Shown here piece by piece: positions 25,450-32,721 of a stretch of 64,000 nt of DNA. Both the position numbers and the translations under genes were made by a program. Below the pieces are notes generated by a model. The model searched no databases. It saw only the letters and a list, made by a program, of their open reading frames with translations, and was not told the DNA's origin. Source of the stretch: Pseudomonadales bacterium. GTDB taxonomy: Bacteria; Pseudomonadota; Gammaproteobacteria; Pseudomonadales; DC-out160. Position 1 is the stretch's first letter, and every line of letters begins with the position of its first letter. Where the stretch lies: positions 1-64,000 of the forward strand of contig JAHRWA010000035.1 in NCBI GenBank assembly GCA_019090455.1. Reading direction: 5' to 3'.

Positions 25450-25479
25450 CGAATTGATTTTCTCCTAATTGATTTTCTC
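25450..25479 (-). repeat. 15-nt tandem repeat over the GST stop codon
   Basis: On the minus strand GAGAAAATCAATTAG (25479-25465, ending in the stop codon) is followed by GAGAAAATCAATTCG (25464-25450). The two 15-nt units differ only at two of the last three bases. Confidence 0.85.
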
Positions 25480-26079
25480 CGCTCTTTTAAAGGCAGGTCT
25501 CTCTTTCATGCGTTCCAAATAATCTAATAGCTCAGCAGAATAGCGGTCAGTCACTCCCAGCACGCCTCCTAAATAGAGCGCATAAACTATGGAGATATCA
25601 ACGATGGTGAACTTGTTTCCACAGACAAACTCTTTCCCCTTAATTTTCTCCTCCAGCAGCCTGAGTCGTGCAATATACCAATCAAGATAACTCTTACCGA
25701 CTTCAGGATATTTACCCGGTTCGAGTATCTGATAACGCATAGCGACCGTTTGGGGAAAAGTGAGAGTGGCTTCTGAATGGTATAACCAGTTGAGAAACTC
25801 TCCATATTCGGGCTCTTCGACACCAATCCCCAGTCCGCCGCCCGCAGTCTTTATTCCGTATTTTTCGACTAGATATTGGCAAATGGCAACAGACTCGGTC
25901 ATATGAGCCGCCCCATCGACAAAATACGGGACGGTACCCAAGGGGTTTATTTCAAGATATTCTTTTTGGAACATTCTAGGAGGGAACCTGACGACTTCAA
26001 TCTCGCAATCCAGCTCCATTTCTTCCAACGTCCACAATACGCGAAAGGAACGAGATCCAAGACAATGCCAAAGTTTCAT
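25465..26079 (-). CDS. Glutathione S-transferase family protein
   Basis: Protein of 204 residues with a thioredoxin-like N-terminal domain (KLWHCLGSRSFRVLWTLEEMELD, NPLGTVPYFVDGAAHMTESVAICQYLVEKYG) and a C-terminal helical domain with FTIVDISIVYALYLGG. The early CLGSRS holds a candidate Ser (beta-, zeta- or nu-like members use Ser or Cys). It is cytoplasmic, with GGAGAATAAGTA before ATG 26079. It follows glcD on the same strand but is separated by 127 nt, so probably a separate unit. Confidence 0.9.
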   Translation of the reverse strand: MKLWHCLGSRSFRVLWTLEEMELDCEIEVVRFPPRMFQKEYLEINPLGTVPYFVDGAAHMTESVAICQYLVEKYGIKTAGGGLGIGVEEPEYGEFLNWLYHSEATLTFPQTVAMRYQILEPGKYPEVGKSYLDWYIARLRLLEEKIKGKEFVCGNKFTIVDISIVYALYLGGVLGVTDRYSAELLDYLERMKERPAFKRAEKIN

Positions 26080-26195: not shown

Positions 26196-28319
26196 TTACA
26201 CATCATCGTTGGATTGTAATACGAAGGGTACTGAGAATTGTACCTTGGTGCCCTGCCCGATCTTTGACTCTATTTCCAGTTGTGCATTCATCACTTCAGC
26301 AGTTCGTTTACAGAGAGATAAACCAACACCGTCATTTAATCGCCGAAACTCCTCATTGGTCAGGTCTCCAGACTTAAATACGAGATCAATTTTCTCTTTC
26401 CGCATTCCCACCCCTGTATCAGAAATAACAAATAAAACGATTATATTATTGCTATCTGTGATGTCAGCTAGAAGACTTACTGACAAACAGACACGTCCTT
26501 TATCCGTGAACTTCACTGCATTATCTAACAAATGATTGAGGATACTGCGTAACCTTGAAGGGGCACCAATCAAATGAATTGGCACATTAGACGCGATATC
26601 ATATTCGAACAATAATCCTTTGGTATGACATCGAGCCATAAATCTTAGACGAATATTATCCAGTCTCTCACTGAGATCAAAAGGTGTTTGTACAAGATTA
26701 CCGCTATCCGATTTCTCCATAAATCCTAGCATGTGATCAACTAATTGCATCATTTTGTCCGCATACTTAGCCGCCGTATGAATACTCGATTCTTGTTTCT
26801 TTTCAAGATCAGAGTGAGAAATAAGATCCAGGGCCCCTACCACTCCATTCATAGGCGTTCTCAATTCGTGGCTAACCATAGCAAATAAATCTGACTTTAG
26901 CTGATGGCTACTATCGAGGTTAATTAGGCTCTCTTCAAGTTTCACCTTAGCTTGTCTATCGCTTGCCAGTTTTTCCATCGCAGACGTATTAATTCTATCG
27001 GCAAGAAAGAAAGAAAAAAGCGCGGCTTCCAATGCCGATCCCAAGTGTACAATATGGCCTGTAAATGAATTATGCGGAACAAGGCCCGCATAAACGAGTA
27101 TGAGAGTGACAACGGAAATACAAAGAATACCCCAAGCACAACAAAAAAACTTTCCTTCTCGATACCCTTGATATGAACTGACCACTCCTACAACAATGAG
27201 TGTTACTGCAATTATGGCTGCAAAAATAATAACGAGCATTGCTCCAGCCATAGAATAATGCAACATCACTGAAATGCCCGCAACAACCACAAGAAGAACT
27301 TCTATTAAAAGCACCTTATCTAAAACCACGTGTCGAGCAGAGGTATTTAACACGACTCGTGCAAATAGCGCCGCTGAAGCTGCCACTAGACTATCCGCAA
27401 AATAGAGTAGCTGTGTGTAGGGTAAACCTTCGGAAAAAGAAAAATAATTATTAAACAGACCATCATTCATCGATAGCGCTAAGCCAACAAAACCGATATA
27501 AAGTATGTAGTAGAAATAAGGTTTTGAGCGCATCCAAATATACAAGAATACATTGTAAAAAAACATCGCGACGATTAAACCGTAATATGCGCCAAACAAA
27601 AAAAGCTGTATTCTTTGGTCTTGAAACCGACTATTGGGTTTCCATAAATAGGCGGGCAAAATCAGTGGGCCTTTACTCTCGACCTTTAGAAAAATCCATT
27701 TCGTTTCCCCTTTTTTGAAATGTAGTGACGACACGAAGTACCTTGACTGAATCGCGGCACTCGCTTTGGCTCGTGACAAACCACTCTGTTCTAAATGATA
27801 TTCGCCCGACTCATTCAACACATATATATCTAACAACGCCAATTGAGGAAACTGAATATCCAGGTCCCGAATAGTCACTTTCTCACTACCTTTATACCGC
27901 ATTGCCACTCGGAACCAATAAGGCGTCGATTGAGGACCAAAATTGGGAACTTCTGCGTTGGCATCCCGATACTTATCTGCAACATTACGACTCAATGCCT
28001 CTTTGAGCGATTTGATATCACCATTATCGGTAGCATATTGCAAATAAGGTCCTATGCTGATCCGCTCTTCCTCATCCGAAAATTCAAGAGTTCGTATCTT
28101 AGTATCTTTTGATAAAGGGGTCTGACTCACATCTTCAATCAGCAAATCAGAATTGATTGCTTCGGTTGCGCTTAATTTAGAAGAGATAGAGTTATAGGAG
28201 ATAGTATTAGAAGAAACAGGAAATGCTGTAAATAGAAAAACACCAATAACAGCAAGTTGCCAGAATACGATCGGTAAACTATGGATATAAATTCGAGTAA
28301 ATCGTAAATTCACCTTCAT
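26196..28319 (-). CDS. 7TM-DISM sensor histidine kinase without receiver
   Basis: Membrane sensor kinase of 707 residues. In order: signal/TM segment (14-34), 7TMR-DISM extracellular domain (about 85-215, ISIGPYLQYATDNGD), seven-TM block (about 235-430, GAYYGLIVAMFFYNVFLYIW...), then HisKA with His484 (SHELRTPMNGVVG), N-box LLDNAVKFTD, ISDTGVGMRKE and GVGLSLCK. All catalytic motifs are present, but there is no receiver domain. It begins 1 nt after the stop of the upstream paralogue, so the two are cotranscribed and translationally coupled. It probably phosphorylates a receiver elsewhere, plausibly that of the neighbour. The sensed ligand is unknown. Confidence 0.9.
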   Translation of the reverse strand: MKVNLRFTRIYIHSLPIVFWQLAVIGVFLFTAFPVSSNTISYNSISSKLSATEAINSDLLIEDVSQTPLSKDTKIRTLEFSDEEERISIGPYLQYATDNGDIKSLKEALSRNVADKYRDANAEVPNFGPQSTPYWFRVAMRYKGSEKVTIRDLDIQFPQLALLDIYVLNESGEYHLEQSGLSRAKASAAIQSRYFVSSLHFKKGETKWIFLKVESKGPLILPAYLWKPNSRFQDQRIQLFLFGAYYGLIVAMFFYNVFLYIWMRSKPYFYYILYIGFVGLALSMNDGLFNNYFSFSEGLPYTQLLYFADSLVAASAALFARVVLNTSARHVVLDKVLLIEVLLVVVAGISVMLHYSMAGAMLVIIFAAIIAVTLIVVGVVSSYQGYREGKFFCCAWGILCISVVTLILVYAGLVPHNSFTGHIVHLGSALEAALFSFFLADRINTSAMEKLASDRQAKVKLEESLINLDSSHQLKSDLFAMVSHELRTPMNGVVGALDLISHSDLEKKQESSIHTAAKYADKMMQLVDHMLGFMEKSDSGNLVQTPFDLSERLDNIRLRFMARCHTKGLLFEYDIASNVPIHLIGAPSRLRSILNHLLDNAVKFTDKGRVCLSVSLLADITDSNNIIVLFVISDTGVGMRKEKIDLVFKSGDLTNEEFRRLNDGVGLSLCKRTAEVMNAQLEIESKIGQGTKVQFSVPFVLQSNDDV

Positions 28320-28320
28320 A

Positions 28321-31035
28321 TCATGCCGATTCCGAAGGTTCGCTAGCGATTAAATAATTTTTCAATACGGCTTTAATAGCAGCGAGTTTTACCGGCTTTT
28401 TTACATAATCATCCATACCCGACTCAAGACATCGCGCTTTATCTCCAGACATTACGTTTGCCGTCACAGCGATTATGGGGACATTAAACCCATCAGCTTC
28501 GTGACACCGTATGTCGCGAGTGGCCTCATAGCCATCTTTAATCGGCATCTGGCAATCCATAAAGACCAGATCGACTTGATTTTGTTTCAAGTAGTCGACG
28601 GCTTCTTGCCCGTTATTTGAAATATTGGCTACGCACCCTAATTTTTCGACAATCGATTTCATTACAGTTTGATTAACTACGTTGTCTTCTACAATGAGTA
28701 CCCTTTTACTCTTAAATTCTAAAGCCTCAAACTCAAATGCCTCAGATTTAGAAGTCTTAAGTTTAGAGCTCACATCTTCGGAAAAATTATTAGAGCTTGG
28801 TGAGAGAGTGTTTTTGTGGCTCTTTTCAAATGGGTTCTTATTTTCCAAAGACTCCTCTGTCATAAGTAATGGAAAAGAACCCAACCCTGCATTAACGGGG
28901 TTTTCTTCATCTCTATGATCCGTTTGACTCGAAGAGTCAAAGTCGATTTCAAAGTCCACGGTAAACGTCACTTCAGTACCCTTATCGACGACTGACGATA
29001 ATACAATCGCACCTTTCATGATATCTGCAGTTTTCTTACAAAGCGCTAGTCCTAACCCCAGTCCATCTTCAGCCCTATTCGTACTCGCATCGACTAGCGA
29101 GAACGGACTAAAAATACTTTGCTGTTGTTCTTGTGGAATTCCCTTTCCGGTATCAGAAATTGAAAAAATCAAAGTCACTTTATTCTTTTCGTTGTCCTTA
29201 AGCTGACTTCTAACCGCAAAGTTCACACTGCCATCCTGAGTAAATTTGACGGCATTATCCAGCAATCCGTACAAGACAACGTGCAATCTTACTCCATCAC
29301 CTTTTAAACGGTCTGGTATTGATTCGTCAACATTGTAGTGGAATAACAAACCTTGTCTTTGGCATTTAGCCCAATAGCGTAAACGAATATATTCAAAGCT
29401 ACCTCTGAGGCTAAAAGGTTTTGAAACATGTATGACGTTTTCCGAATTCTCCGTAAATCGAATTAAGTCGTTTACTAGAAACATCATAGAACGTGCCGAA
29501 TTGATCGCGGTATTCAAAAATCCGATTTGATCTTGAGACAATCGACTACCTGACAACTCTAACGCGTGACGAACGACACCATTGATAGGTACTATCAGTT
29601 CCTGACCAATACTCCCTAAAAAATCATCCTTTAGTCGATGACTCGCCCGCAATTGTTGATGACTATTGTGTAGCTCAGCTCTGGCCAACTTTTCTATCGA
29701 TAGTTTTTCTGATACGAGTGTATTTATTCTATCTGCGAGAACAAAAGAAAGTAGAAGCACTTCAATAGCGGAACCAAAGTGAACGGCATGCAGGGTATAG
29801 ATGTTGACAGGAATCAGCCCAAGATAAGTCAACATTAAAACCGTTGCACCTATCAATACGATTGACCAAGCCATCATAAAAAACTTAGCCTCTCGATATC
29901 CCTTATAGAGGCTAATCGCGCCACCTATTAATAAGCATGATGTACAGGAAATGGTGGCAACAATAATGATATAATTACTAAAGATTGAATAGTCTAAAAA
30001 CGAGAGAAAAAGACCACTGAGATAGAGCCCAATGATAAGACGCAAAACTCTGTCTAAATTAGGATGGCGAATTTTAATATGTAAAAACTGACGAAAAAAC
30101 AGTATCGCTGTTAAGCCAGTTGTACTCATTAACGTCCAAAAACCGTGTATATTTATCCACTGATTATTACCCACGATATACTCTCTAATTAGCCCATCGT
30201 TTGTTAGCATGAATAAGCCAAGTGAAAGGATATAACATAGATAGTAAAAGTAGCTGATGAATTTCATCGATAAAAATAAAAAAAGGTTATACAAAAACAT
30301 CACGATTATGATCCCGTAATAAACACCAAAGACGAGCATCTGTGTTTGATCCCATTGCCGGCGAGCCGAAATATCCCATAAATAATACGGCAGATTTAGC
30401 ATTGCTTGGCCCGCGACCTTAATCATAATCTTCTTCGTCTCCCCTCTTTTTAAATGTATTCTTACGACGAAACTACGGGATTTGATATCGGGACCCATAA
30501 GGTCTCGATTTTTACCCCCCAATACGTTTCGATTTACGCCCTCGTGATTGATTTCGTAGTAGTCTATAAATTCTAATAATGGGTAAGCGAGTTCAAGCTC
30601 TTTTGTCACTTCTTCCAGCTCACCCTCATATTTCAAGACCAATCGAAACCAATGAGGCTTATCGGTGAATCCAAAGCTGGGGATTGGGTCTAACACATTA
30701 GTAAAATGAGAATCATTTTCAATATCGAGAACATCGTCCAGACTCCATAACCCACTCCTATCCACGGCATACTGAAGATGGGAACCTAAAATAATACTGG
30801 GGTTACTGTCATCGAATGCGACAGTTCGAATACTGGAAATGGGCTTATCGTCGGAAGAGTGTTCGTAGGAAGAACGTTCGTCTGAAGTGTTTTCGCGTGA
30901 GGAGACTGACGCTTCACCTTTAGTGATCGGGATCACGATAAGAAAAACAGATATTAGAACCCATCTGCAAAAGAGATTGATTACCCATTTTAGCTGCTCC
31001 CGAGCCATTGTAGGATGAATGATTATTCTCATCAT
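28321..31035 (-). CDS. 7TM-DISM hybrid kinase lacking the H-box histidine
   Basis: Hybrid sensor protein of 904 residues, paralogous to the downstream kinase. It has signal/TM (about 18-40), DISM extracellular domain (IILGSHLQYAVDRSGLWSLDD), seven-TM block (about 235-430), a HisKA-like region, HATPase (LLDNAVKFTQDG, ISDTGKGIPQE, GLGLGLALCK) and a C-terminal receiver (VLIVEDNVVNQT, D827 in MDCQMPIKDGYEA, KKP near the end). The H-box reads IGQELIVPINGVV: where relatives have SHELRTP, position 478 is Gln (codon CAG at 29604-29602). It thus cannot autophosphorylate in the usual way, although ATP binding and the receiver look intact. A partner kinase could phosphorylate D827. First gene of the pair. 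Confidence 0.9.
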   Translation of the reverse strand: MMRIIIHPTMAREQLKWVINLFCRWVLISVFLIVIPITKGEASVSSRENTSDERSSYEHSSDDKPISSIRTVAFDDSNPSIILGSHLQYAVDRSGLWSLDDVLDIENDSHFTNVLDPIPSFGFTDKPHWFRLVLKYEGELEEVTKELELAYPLLEFIDYYEINHEGVNRNVLGGKNRDLMGPDIKSRSFVVRIHLKRGETKKIMIKVAGQAMLNLPYYLWDISARRQWDQTQMLVFGVYYGIIIVMFLYNLFLFLSMKFISYFYYLCYILSLGLFMLTNDGLIREYIVGNNQWINIHGFWTLMSTTGLTAILFFRQFLHIKIRHPNLDRVLRLIIGLYLSGLFLSFLDYSIFSNYIIIVATISCTSCLLIGGAISLYKGYREAKFFMMAWSIVLIGATVLMLTYLGLIPVNIYTLHAVHFGSAIEVLLLSFVLADRINTLVSEKLSIEKLARAELHNSHQQLRASHRLKDDFLGSIGQELIVPINGVVRHALELSGSRLSQDQIGFLNTAINSARSMMFLVNDLIRFTENSENVIHVSKPFSLRGSFEYIRLRYWAKCQRQGLLFHYNVDESIPDRLKGDGVRLHVVLYGLLDNAVKFTQDGSVNFAVRSQLKDNEKNKVTLIFSISDTGKGIPQEQQQSIFSPFSLVDASTNRAEDGLGLGLALCKKTADIMKGAIVLSSVVDKGTEVTFTVDFEIDFDSSSQTDHRDEENPVNAGLGSFPLLMTEESLENKNPFEKSHKNTLSPSSNNFSEDVSSKLKTSKSEAFEFEALEFKSKRVLIVEDNVVNQTVMKSIVEKLGCVANISNNGQEAVDYLKQNQVDLVFMDCQMPIKDGYEATRDIRCHEADGFNVPIIAVTANVMSGDKARCLESGMDDYVKKPVKLAAIKAVLKNYLIASEPSESA

Positions 31036-31446: not shown

Positions 31447-32721
31447 ATGAGTGAATTGGCAATGAACAAAAACTATTCCTTCAAATTTCTATTTCTACTT
31501 TACCTTGGCTTACAACTCAATTTGACAGGCTGTGTCAGTGATAGTCATCAGCTAATGATGAAAACGGAAAAGCAGATTGATGAACAAGCCATAGTCACCA
31601 ATGTCGCAACAAAACTCGACCTGCTGGAAACTCGAGTTGCCAAAGCGCGTGCTAGCGGTATATCCCTCCTAGGAAATGATGATATGAATGAAGCATTGGA
31701 TGCTTTAGCGGAGGCTCGCCGATATCACAGTCGCTTTTTGAGAAACAGCACTGGAGTGAAATCATCGACTTCATTACTTTTCGGGCAACCAACGGGTGAA
31801 AAGGCACTATCACTTATTGCACAAGCTAACACCGCATTATTAAGAGCCGAAAACAACAAACGAGATTCAGATGCGATATTAAAGGAATTTACCGAAAACA
31901 TGGAGTGGTTGAAAAAATTTGAGGCGCCTTTCTATTTTCCTTCAGAGTATTCTGAAATTGAAAAAGCCCACAGCAAGCTTCTCGCTCAAATTGCAAAAGG
32001 TCGAACCGACAAAGCAGTAAAACAATTACCCCTATTTTTAAGAGAGCAAAAAGCCTTAGAGATTGTTTCGGCTCAACAACATTATCTTAAAGTCATGAGT
32101 CGAAAAATAGAGGAAGCCAGTAATGGTAATATCAGTCGCTATGCAGAACAGTCCTTTCACAAATGTGTTGCCGCTTACAATCGAGCCTCGCTCACCATCG
32201 CCATCAACCCTCGTGATGATAAGGCGATAGCAGATGCGACTCAAGATATCGAGCAAGCACTCTCTATTGCACATTCTATCGCACAGGATATGCAGCGTTT
32301 AGCGGGAATGGATCAGCTGCAAATGGAACGTTGGTTGTTACTTCTCACAACGCAGCTCCAATTAGCGGGTATAGAATTAGGTGGTGCTGATCTGAGCCAA
32401 CTTTCAGTGCTTGAGCAAGCAGAGACATTAGCGAATCTAGCACGAGAGGGTCATGTAGTTGCTGCCACTCCAAAACAAGATGTAGATCTAAACACTAATC
32501 AAAAAGAGGAATTAGCGGATAAGGCAACCACTGAAGCAGAAAAACCAACACACTTATCTAAGACGGAAATTTCCTTAATTGAAAAAATGGATAACTTAAA
32601 CGCACAACTTCAGGCAATGAAAGTTCAAAATCAAACTGCCTCGGCCGAACTACCTTTAGATTTAAATTTTAAGACTAAAAGTAAAACTAATGGTAAACGA
32701 CGCAGTCTCTTTGTCCGCTAA
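31447..32721 (+). CDS. Helical lipoprotein, unknown
   Basis: Predicted lipoprotein of 424 residues. The signal peptide (FLFLLYLGLQLNLTGCVSD) ends in the lipobox LTGC. The rest is almost entirely helical with Ala/Gln/Leu/Glu-rich heptad-like stretches (LDLLETRVAKARASG, DMNEALDALAEARRYHSRF, AIADATQDIEQALSIAHSI), as in DUF4398-like or OmpA-linked periplasmic helical proteins. No catalytic motif. The C-terminus is basic (KTKSKTNGKRRSLFVR). Start may be 31447 or the ATG five codons later (31462). It is probably anchored in the outer membrane, facing the periplasm. Confidence 0.65.
   Translation: MSELAMNKNYSFKFLFLLYLGLQLNLTGCVSDSHQLMMKTEKQIDEQAIVTNVATKLDLLETRVAKARASGISLLGNDDMNEALDALAEARRYHSRFLRNSTGVKSSTSLLFGQPTGEKALSLIAQANTALLRAENNKRDSDAILKEFTENMEWLKKFEAPFYFPSEYSEIEKAHSKLLAQIAKGRTDKAVKQLPLFLREQKALEIVSAQQHYLKVMSRKIEEASNGNISRYAEQSFHKCVAAYNRASLTIAINPRDDKAIADATQDIEQALSIAHSIAQDMQRLAGMDQLQMERWLLLLTTQLQLAGIELGGADLSQLSVLEQAETLANLAREGHVVAATPKQDVDLNTNQKEELADKATTEAEKPTHLSKTEISLIEKMDNLNAQLQAMKVQNQTASAELPLDLNFKTKSKTNGKRRSLFVR

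Follow-up and report, generated by a model that had tools for sequence, protein, structure and literature searches.

Two adjacent, paralogous genes in the 64,000-nucleotide stretch of DNA analysed here (the window) encode sensor kinases of the 7TMR-DISM type, neither of which is a catalytically complete HisKA hybrid: the upstream protein lacks the phospho-acceptor histidine, and the downstream protein lacks a receiver domain and has an altered G2 region in its ATPase domain. This arrangement is real, conserved and unusual. The best explanation, to which we give slightly better than even chances, is a heterodimeric split hybrid kinase that would have arisen from a duplicated hybrid kinase. The retention of the complementary pair in four genomes from two families suggests that each protein functions solely in combination with the other.

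Both genes lie on the minus strand, with the gene for the 904-residue protein transcribed first and that for the 707-residue protein second. The upstream gene (31035-28321; open reading frame, Pfam and AlphaFold2 model) encodes the His-less 7TMR-DISM hybrid kinase, the downstream gene (28319-26196; open reading frame and Pfam) a 7TMR-DISM histidine kinase without receiver, and a lone intergenic base (28320) separates the TGA of the first from the ATG of the second. The two proteins share 36% identity over 687 residues, which bears out the paralogy claimed in a preliminary description of this DNA; its open reading frame positions, one-nucleotide spacing, residue numbers and glutamine codon were likewise correct when the sequence was read again. 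Both proteins match PF07695 and PF07696 above the cut-offs and so belong to the 7TMR-DISM histidine kinases.

The upstream protein possesses an extracellular 7TMR-DISMED2 sensor (residues 84-221; 30373-30786, minus strand as all features here; PF07696, 71.9 bits), a 7TMR-DISM_7TM membrane domain (residues 233-436; 29728-30339; PF07695, 156.9 bits) and a degenerate HisKA/DHp helical hairpin (29431-29679), which is recognised from modelled helices and from a Pfam HisKA match of 14.9 bits (E=0.029) that falls below the cut-off of 26.9. Its H-box reads GQELIVP (29607-29587), with codon 478 (CAG, 29604-29602) placing a glutamine at the site of the phospho-acceptor histidine. The AlphaFold2 model, built from an alignment of 39 sequences (mean pLDDT 82.9), contains the DHp hairpin, CA and receiver folds, and Gln478 is located in the first of the two DHp helices (412-495 and 501-533). 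Further downstream follow the HATPase (CA) domain (28945-29328; PF02518, 77 bits), in which the N, G1, F and G2 boxes are intact as judged from conserved columns, and the receiver (28357-28710; PF00072, 89 bits) with D827, T858 and K879, the latter within a KKP motif. Sequence and Pfam thus agree with the earlier reading of a glutamine in place of the histidine beside an intact ATPase and receiver.

The downstream protein carries the same sensor and membrane domains (7TMR-DISMED2, 27639-28052, PF07696, 73.6 bits; 7TMR-DISM_7TM, 26994-27602, PF07695, 124 bits), followed by an intact H-box, SHELRTP, with His484 (26853-26873; HisKA 43.1 bits). A HATPase domain is present, and no receiver was found in this protein by Pfam search. 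Within the HATPase domain, N and G1 are undamaged, but when the protein was aligned with 163 outgroup kinases, the comparison revealed an altered G2 region (LNDGVGLSL, 26313-26339), in which the first glycine of GxGxG is absent, and an ATP lid without FxPF box (FKSGDL). The preliminary description was therefore right about the H-box and the missing receiver of this protein but not about a fully intact ATPase.

The pair was searched for in 390 and 389 genomes of the order (overlapping draws) and in 369 genomes of the class, and under strict cut-offs was found only in the window genome and in three others (G001, G118 and G058). These are all four of the genomes in which the family was detected, and each has the pair in the same order and on the same strand, with 1 to about 90 nt between the genes. 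The window genome and G001, the only other genome of its genus compared, represent one genus, and G118 and G058 belong to another GTDB family; the assemblies of G001, G118 and G058 are in fragments, with a completeness of 74-89%. At the upstream histidine site the four orthologues have Gln, Gln, Glu and Glu (codons CAG, CAA, GAA and GAA), each with an intact receiver in the same protein, and the downstream partner reads SHELRTP without receiver in every case; in G118 and G058 the upstream H-box is SEEFIVP or SEEFVVP. The supposition that a change from His to Gln would be fixed wherever the two genes are adjacent thus stands for the loss of the histidine, which is replaced in all four pairs, though by Gln or Glu rather than by Gln alone. 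No further pair was detected in other genomes of the family of G118 and G058, the contig search elsewhere returned relatives at most about 32% identical over most of the protein, and for lone REC-less or His-less relatives (G004, G047, G008 and G270) no paired partner was found.

The upstream orthologues share about 48-58% identity, with open reading frames and ATPase and receiver motifs intact, and within the upstream clade no domain is as well conserved as the receiver (60-73% between genomes versus 44-62% for the 7TM region). A sequencing error at codon 478, named beforehand as an observation that would overturn the proposal, is ruled out by Gln or Glu in orthologues this divergent, and recent decay of the upstream gene by the same residues together with the intact motifs. 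A second such observation, a pairing not conserved among relatives, was likewise not made, the pair being kept in all four genomes and both GTDB families. Chance adjacency is ruled out by the retention of the pair in two families with different neighbours; since the neighbours differ, it is the pair that is kept. In the window (25465-26079) and in G058 (L182, 11147-11779) a glutathione S-transferase gene lies after the pair in the same orientation, but none was seen in G001, and its position is probably a coincidence. In both genomes of the genus a divergent gene for a putative lipoprotein, which had no Pfam match, lies beside the kinase locus (31447-32721 in the window; 1194-2441 of L033 in G001).

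In G001 an expanded array occupies the same place, beside this same divergent gene and a luciferase-like gene. At least four such kinases (G001a to G001d) are broken over three contigs (L031, L032 and L033), whose succession is deduced from the order of their genes and from their broken ends; contig ends interrupt genes a and c. Genes c (SQDFIVP, with receiver) and d (SHELRTP, without receiver), about 80 nt apart, correspond to the window pair, and the additional genes a (SHDFFAP) and b (SQDLIVP) both lack a receiver. The DHp hairpin modelled for the window protein and the replaced histidine (Q/Q/E/E) of the four upstream orthologues make them candidate pseudo-histidine kinases of the DivL kind, with G001a, a His-bearing paralogue of the upstream clade, as the exception. 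Replacement is accordingly not fixed throughout that clade, and G001b, which has no receiver, and G001a, which groups with the upstream genes, show that the two roles are not strictly divided.

Two maximum-likelihood trees, one of the kinase core and one of the whole region from sensor to ATPase, agree in topology. The upstream genes form one clade (support 100/98 and 100/99 in the two trees), the downstream genes another (100/98 or better in both), the two clades group together as sisters (100/99 and 100/100), and hybrids with histidine and receiver are closest to both. A single tandem duplication followed by reciprocal loss is what this topology implies, and the duplicates have diverged, with the histidine lost from one copy and the receiver from the other. 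The duplication would either be older than the split of the two families, or the whole pair may have been transferred once between them. G001a is nested beside G001b (99/96), with which it shares the other H-box losses, so that a return of the histidine would be the shorter explanation for its presence, the alternative being repeated loss elsewhere.

The complementarity extends beyond histidine and receiver. We aligned the ten members of the cluster with 163 His-bearing relatives and considered the 38 columns conserved in at least 85% of the latter. The upstream clade has lost H478 (except in G001a), R481, T482 and G489, the lost H-box threonine being what we take to be the phosphatase residue of the ExxT motif; the clade is unchanged at the catalytic positions in the N, G1 and F boxes and, again except in G001a, in G2. 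The downstream clade has kept the whole H-box and lost the first G2 glycine in all four sequences; the window copy also lacks D580, a conserved aspartate before the N box, and F645 of the FxPF box. In G001a it is the third G2 glycine that has changed (Gly662 to Ser), while the His-less G001b has an intact G2. As a result, G2 is damaged in all five His-bearing members of the cluster, in none of the five His-less ones and in 3 of the 163 outgroup sequences, and a histidine never occurs together with an intact G2 box in one protein of the cluster (n=10; Fisher p = 0.008 for His versus damaged G2 within the cluster, with shared descent ignored). We regard this reciprocal G2 damage, which had escaped the preliminary description, as moderate evidence, since at least two independent changes underlie it; the events behind the motif losses are few, namely one on the downstream stem and one in G001a. 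Moreover, ATP may still be bound when the first G2 glycine is missing, as it is in 3 of the 163 otherwise normal homologues, and the downstream ATPase could still work.

How uncommon such a replacement is can be seen from 199 distinct homologous HisKA domains, 185 of which have histidine at the phospho-acceptor site, eight another residue and six an unreadable one. Five of the eight belong to the upstream clade (Q, Q, Q, E and E), and the remaining three have R, R and Y. Nearly all full-length relatives combine histidine and receiver in one protein, including tandem 7TMR-DISM kinases elsewhere. Elsewhere in the order, four tandem arrays (L151, L186, L187 and L189) serve as a natural control, and their retention of histidine and receiver in each copy rules out a general habit of tandem 7TMR-DISM kinases.

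Other 7TMR-DISM kinases with unusual domain content also occur. A second His-less hybrid is encoded in the window genome itself (L118, 3071-5260, contig C104); it has a truncated HisKA (SRELNPP, with Arg), no HATPase domain and a receiver, and adjoins NtrB/NtrC-like genes. Its apparent counterpart in G001 (L137) reads SYELHTP, with Tyr. A lone kinase of G008 (L007, 1504-3543) has SRELKKP, with Arg for His, and keeps its ATPase in a protein with neither receiver nor partner, and in two genomes of one family (G004 and G047; L190 and L036) a lone kinase with histidine and without receiver adjoins acyl-CoA dehydrogenase-like genes.

Under the split hybrid kinase that we favour, a gene for a hybrid 7TMR-DISM kinase would have been duplicated in tandem, after which each copy would have lost what the other kept, and only the two proteins together would make up a functional phosphorelay. 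These are envisaged to pair in the membrane via their homologous 7TM and DHp regions. In E. coli BarA, autophosphorylation and transfer to the receiver both take place in trans within the dimer (trans-trans-trans; PMC4734776), and if this working of the core is shared, the heterodimer would have exactly one complete route: the upstream ATPase domain would phosphorylate His484 of the downstream protein in trans, and the phosphate would then pass to Asp827 of the upstream receiver. From there it may move on to an Hpt protein or domain encoded elsewhere, or else the receiver may itself signal once phosphorylated. Both transfers within the heterodimer have a published counterpart, the first in FasB/FasC (PMC12675982) and the second in the passage from GacS to RetS (PMC5992135). 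Joint inheritance and complementary motif loss, as expected of a split kinase, are observed, and the motif by itself suggests that the downstream ATPase is lost; the heterodimer, the direction of phosphorylation, the transfer to the receiver and the output are what we infer from them. A split phosphorelay or heterodimer had been proposed at the outset, and the conservation of the pair supports that proposal, although its mechanistic steps stay putative and a role like that of RetS or DivL would fit most facts. The accompanying idea that the first protein provides the ATPase in trans gains from the reciprocal G2 damage in the His-bearing partners and is still to be read as a prediction. A stricter version, to which we assign somewhat less than even chances, holds that reciprocal degeneration has made the heterodimer obligate and that the same principle evolved a second time in G001 (genes a and b).

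The main rival, which we consider rather doubtful but well ahead of the others, is that the downstream kinase is self-sufficient and the upstream protein a regulatory pseudokinase with a purely structural ATPase domain, acting either through a blocking heterodimer and the draining of phosphate to its receiver, as RetS does, or by sensing a partner, as in DivL. Both routes have precedents: RetS of Pseudomonas aeruginosa blocks GacS and accepts, on a receiver of its own, the phosphate of the GacS histidine (PMC5992135), and DivL has kept all kinase boxes except the histidine, yet its ATPase domain is dispensable (PMC4211667), so that intact boxes are no proof of a working ATPase. The intact N and G1 boxes of the downstream protein and the F-box kept in the downstream copies of G118, G058 and G001 would also suit a self-sufficient kinase. 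However, a structural ATPase should drift, as in RetS, where the G-boxes are gone (PMC5992135), whereas N and G1 are kept in six of six upstream-clade sequences and G2 in five of five His-less ones, across 48-58% identity, and it is the His-bearing members that lose part of G2.

We find it improbable that the two proteins have no mutual action, the downstream kinase acting on a response regulator of its own and the upstream receiver drawing its phosphate from another kinase or Hpt protein. No Hpt or output regulator gene adjoins the pair, and the host genome, with 23 Hpt matches and about a dozen further related hybrid kinases, would offer other partners, but tight linkage in two families despite differing neighbours speaks against such independence, which leaves the reciprocal losses unexplained. 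That the upstream gene is merely a degenerating duplicate is very improbable and largely refuted, for although other 7TMR-DISM proteins of these genomes have lost the histidine (L118, L137 and L007), the reading frames and the ATPase and receiver motifs are intact in all four genomes and no domain is better conserved than the receiver.

Among sensor histidine kinases, homodimers are the rule with few exceptions. Trans-phosphorylation is classically demonstrated in the laboratory by combining a mutant of the ATP site with a mutant of the histidine, and the locus looks as though evolution had made that experiment permanent and divided the receiver too. Whether duplicated paralogues can become obligate heterodimers is a standing question that bears on the insulation of signalling pathways. 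If the heterodimer is obligate, signalling would require both sensors and none would come from homodimers, each copy having kept its full membrane sensor; the locus would then be a small testable system for joining two sensors into one signal.

Among the known systems with which the pair may be compared, RetS shares the 7TMR-DISM sensor; to our knowledge, the RetS and GacS genes are not adjacent paralogues, and DivL is not a duplicate beside its partner. RetS and GacS resemble the present pair in that a 7TMR-DISM hybrid acts on another kinase, with transfer from His to receiver between proteins and a proposed heterodimer, but RetS is inhibitory and its degenerate ATPase without G-boxes is the reverse of the upstream protein (PMC5992135). 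The upstream protein itself is not RetS, as it has intact G-boxes and one receiver instead of degenerate G-boxes and two receivers. DivL of Caulobacter likewise has its HisKA histidine replaced (by Tyr), keeps the other boxes and regulates another kinase, but has PAS sensors, no receiver and weak ATP binding (PMC4211667). Of the named families, BarA scores highest against the upstream kinase core, and its trans relay was shown by mixing ATP-site and phosphorylation-site mutants that resemble the natural pair, but its homodimer consists of a single, complete protein that includes an Hpt domain (PMC4734776); membership of the BarA/GacS family is ruled out by a score of 256 bits against the BarA cut-off of 890 and by the lack of Hpt. 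In CheA3/CheA4 of Rhodobacter sphaeroides the ATP-binding part and the phospho-acceptor histidine are on separate proteins, but these are cytoplasmic, of CheA type with a P1 (Hpt) domain, and lack whole domains rather than a single residue, with no receiver divided (PMC3591291); Hik36/Hik43 is a similar split kinase (PMC7656254). In FasB/FasC of group A Streptococcus, two sensor-kinase-like proteins of one locus with evidence for a heterodimer, the FasB ATPase phosphorylates the FasC histidine, one ATPase and the phospho-acceptor histidine of the other protein being needed and the second ATPase dispensable (PMC12675982). The differences lie in other sensors, the lack of a receiver in either kinase, the DHp histidines kept in FasB and an output through a DNA-binding regulator in the same locus (PMC12675982). 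Split and pseudo-histidine-kinase systems are known already, and the arrangement described here is a new version of them.
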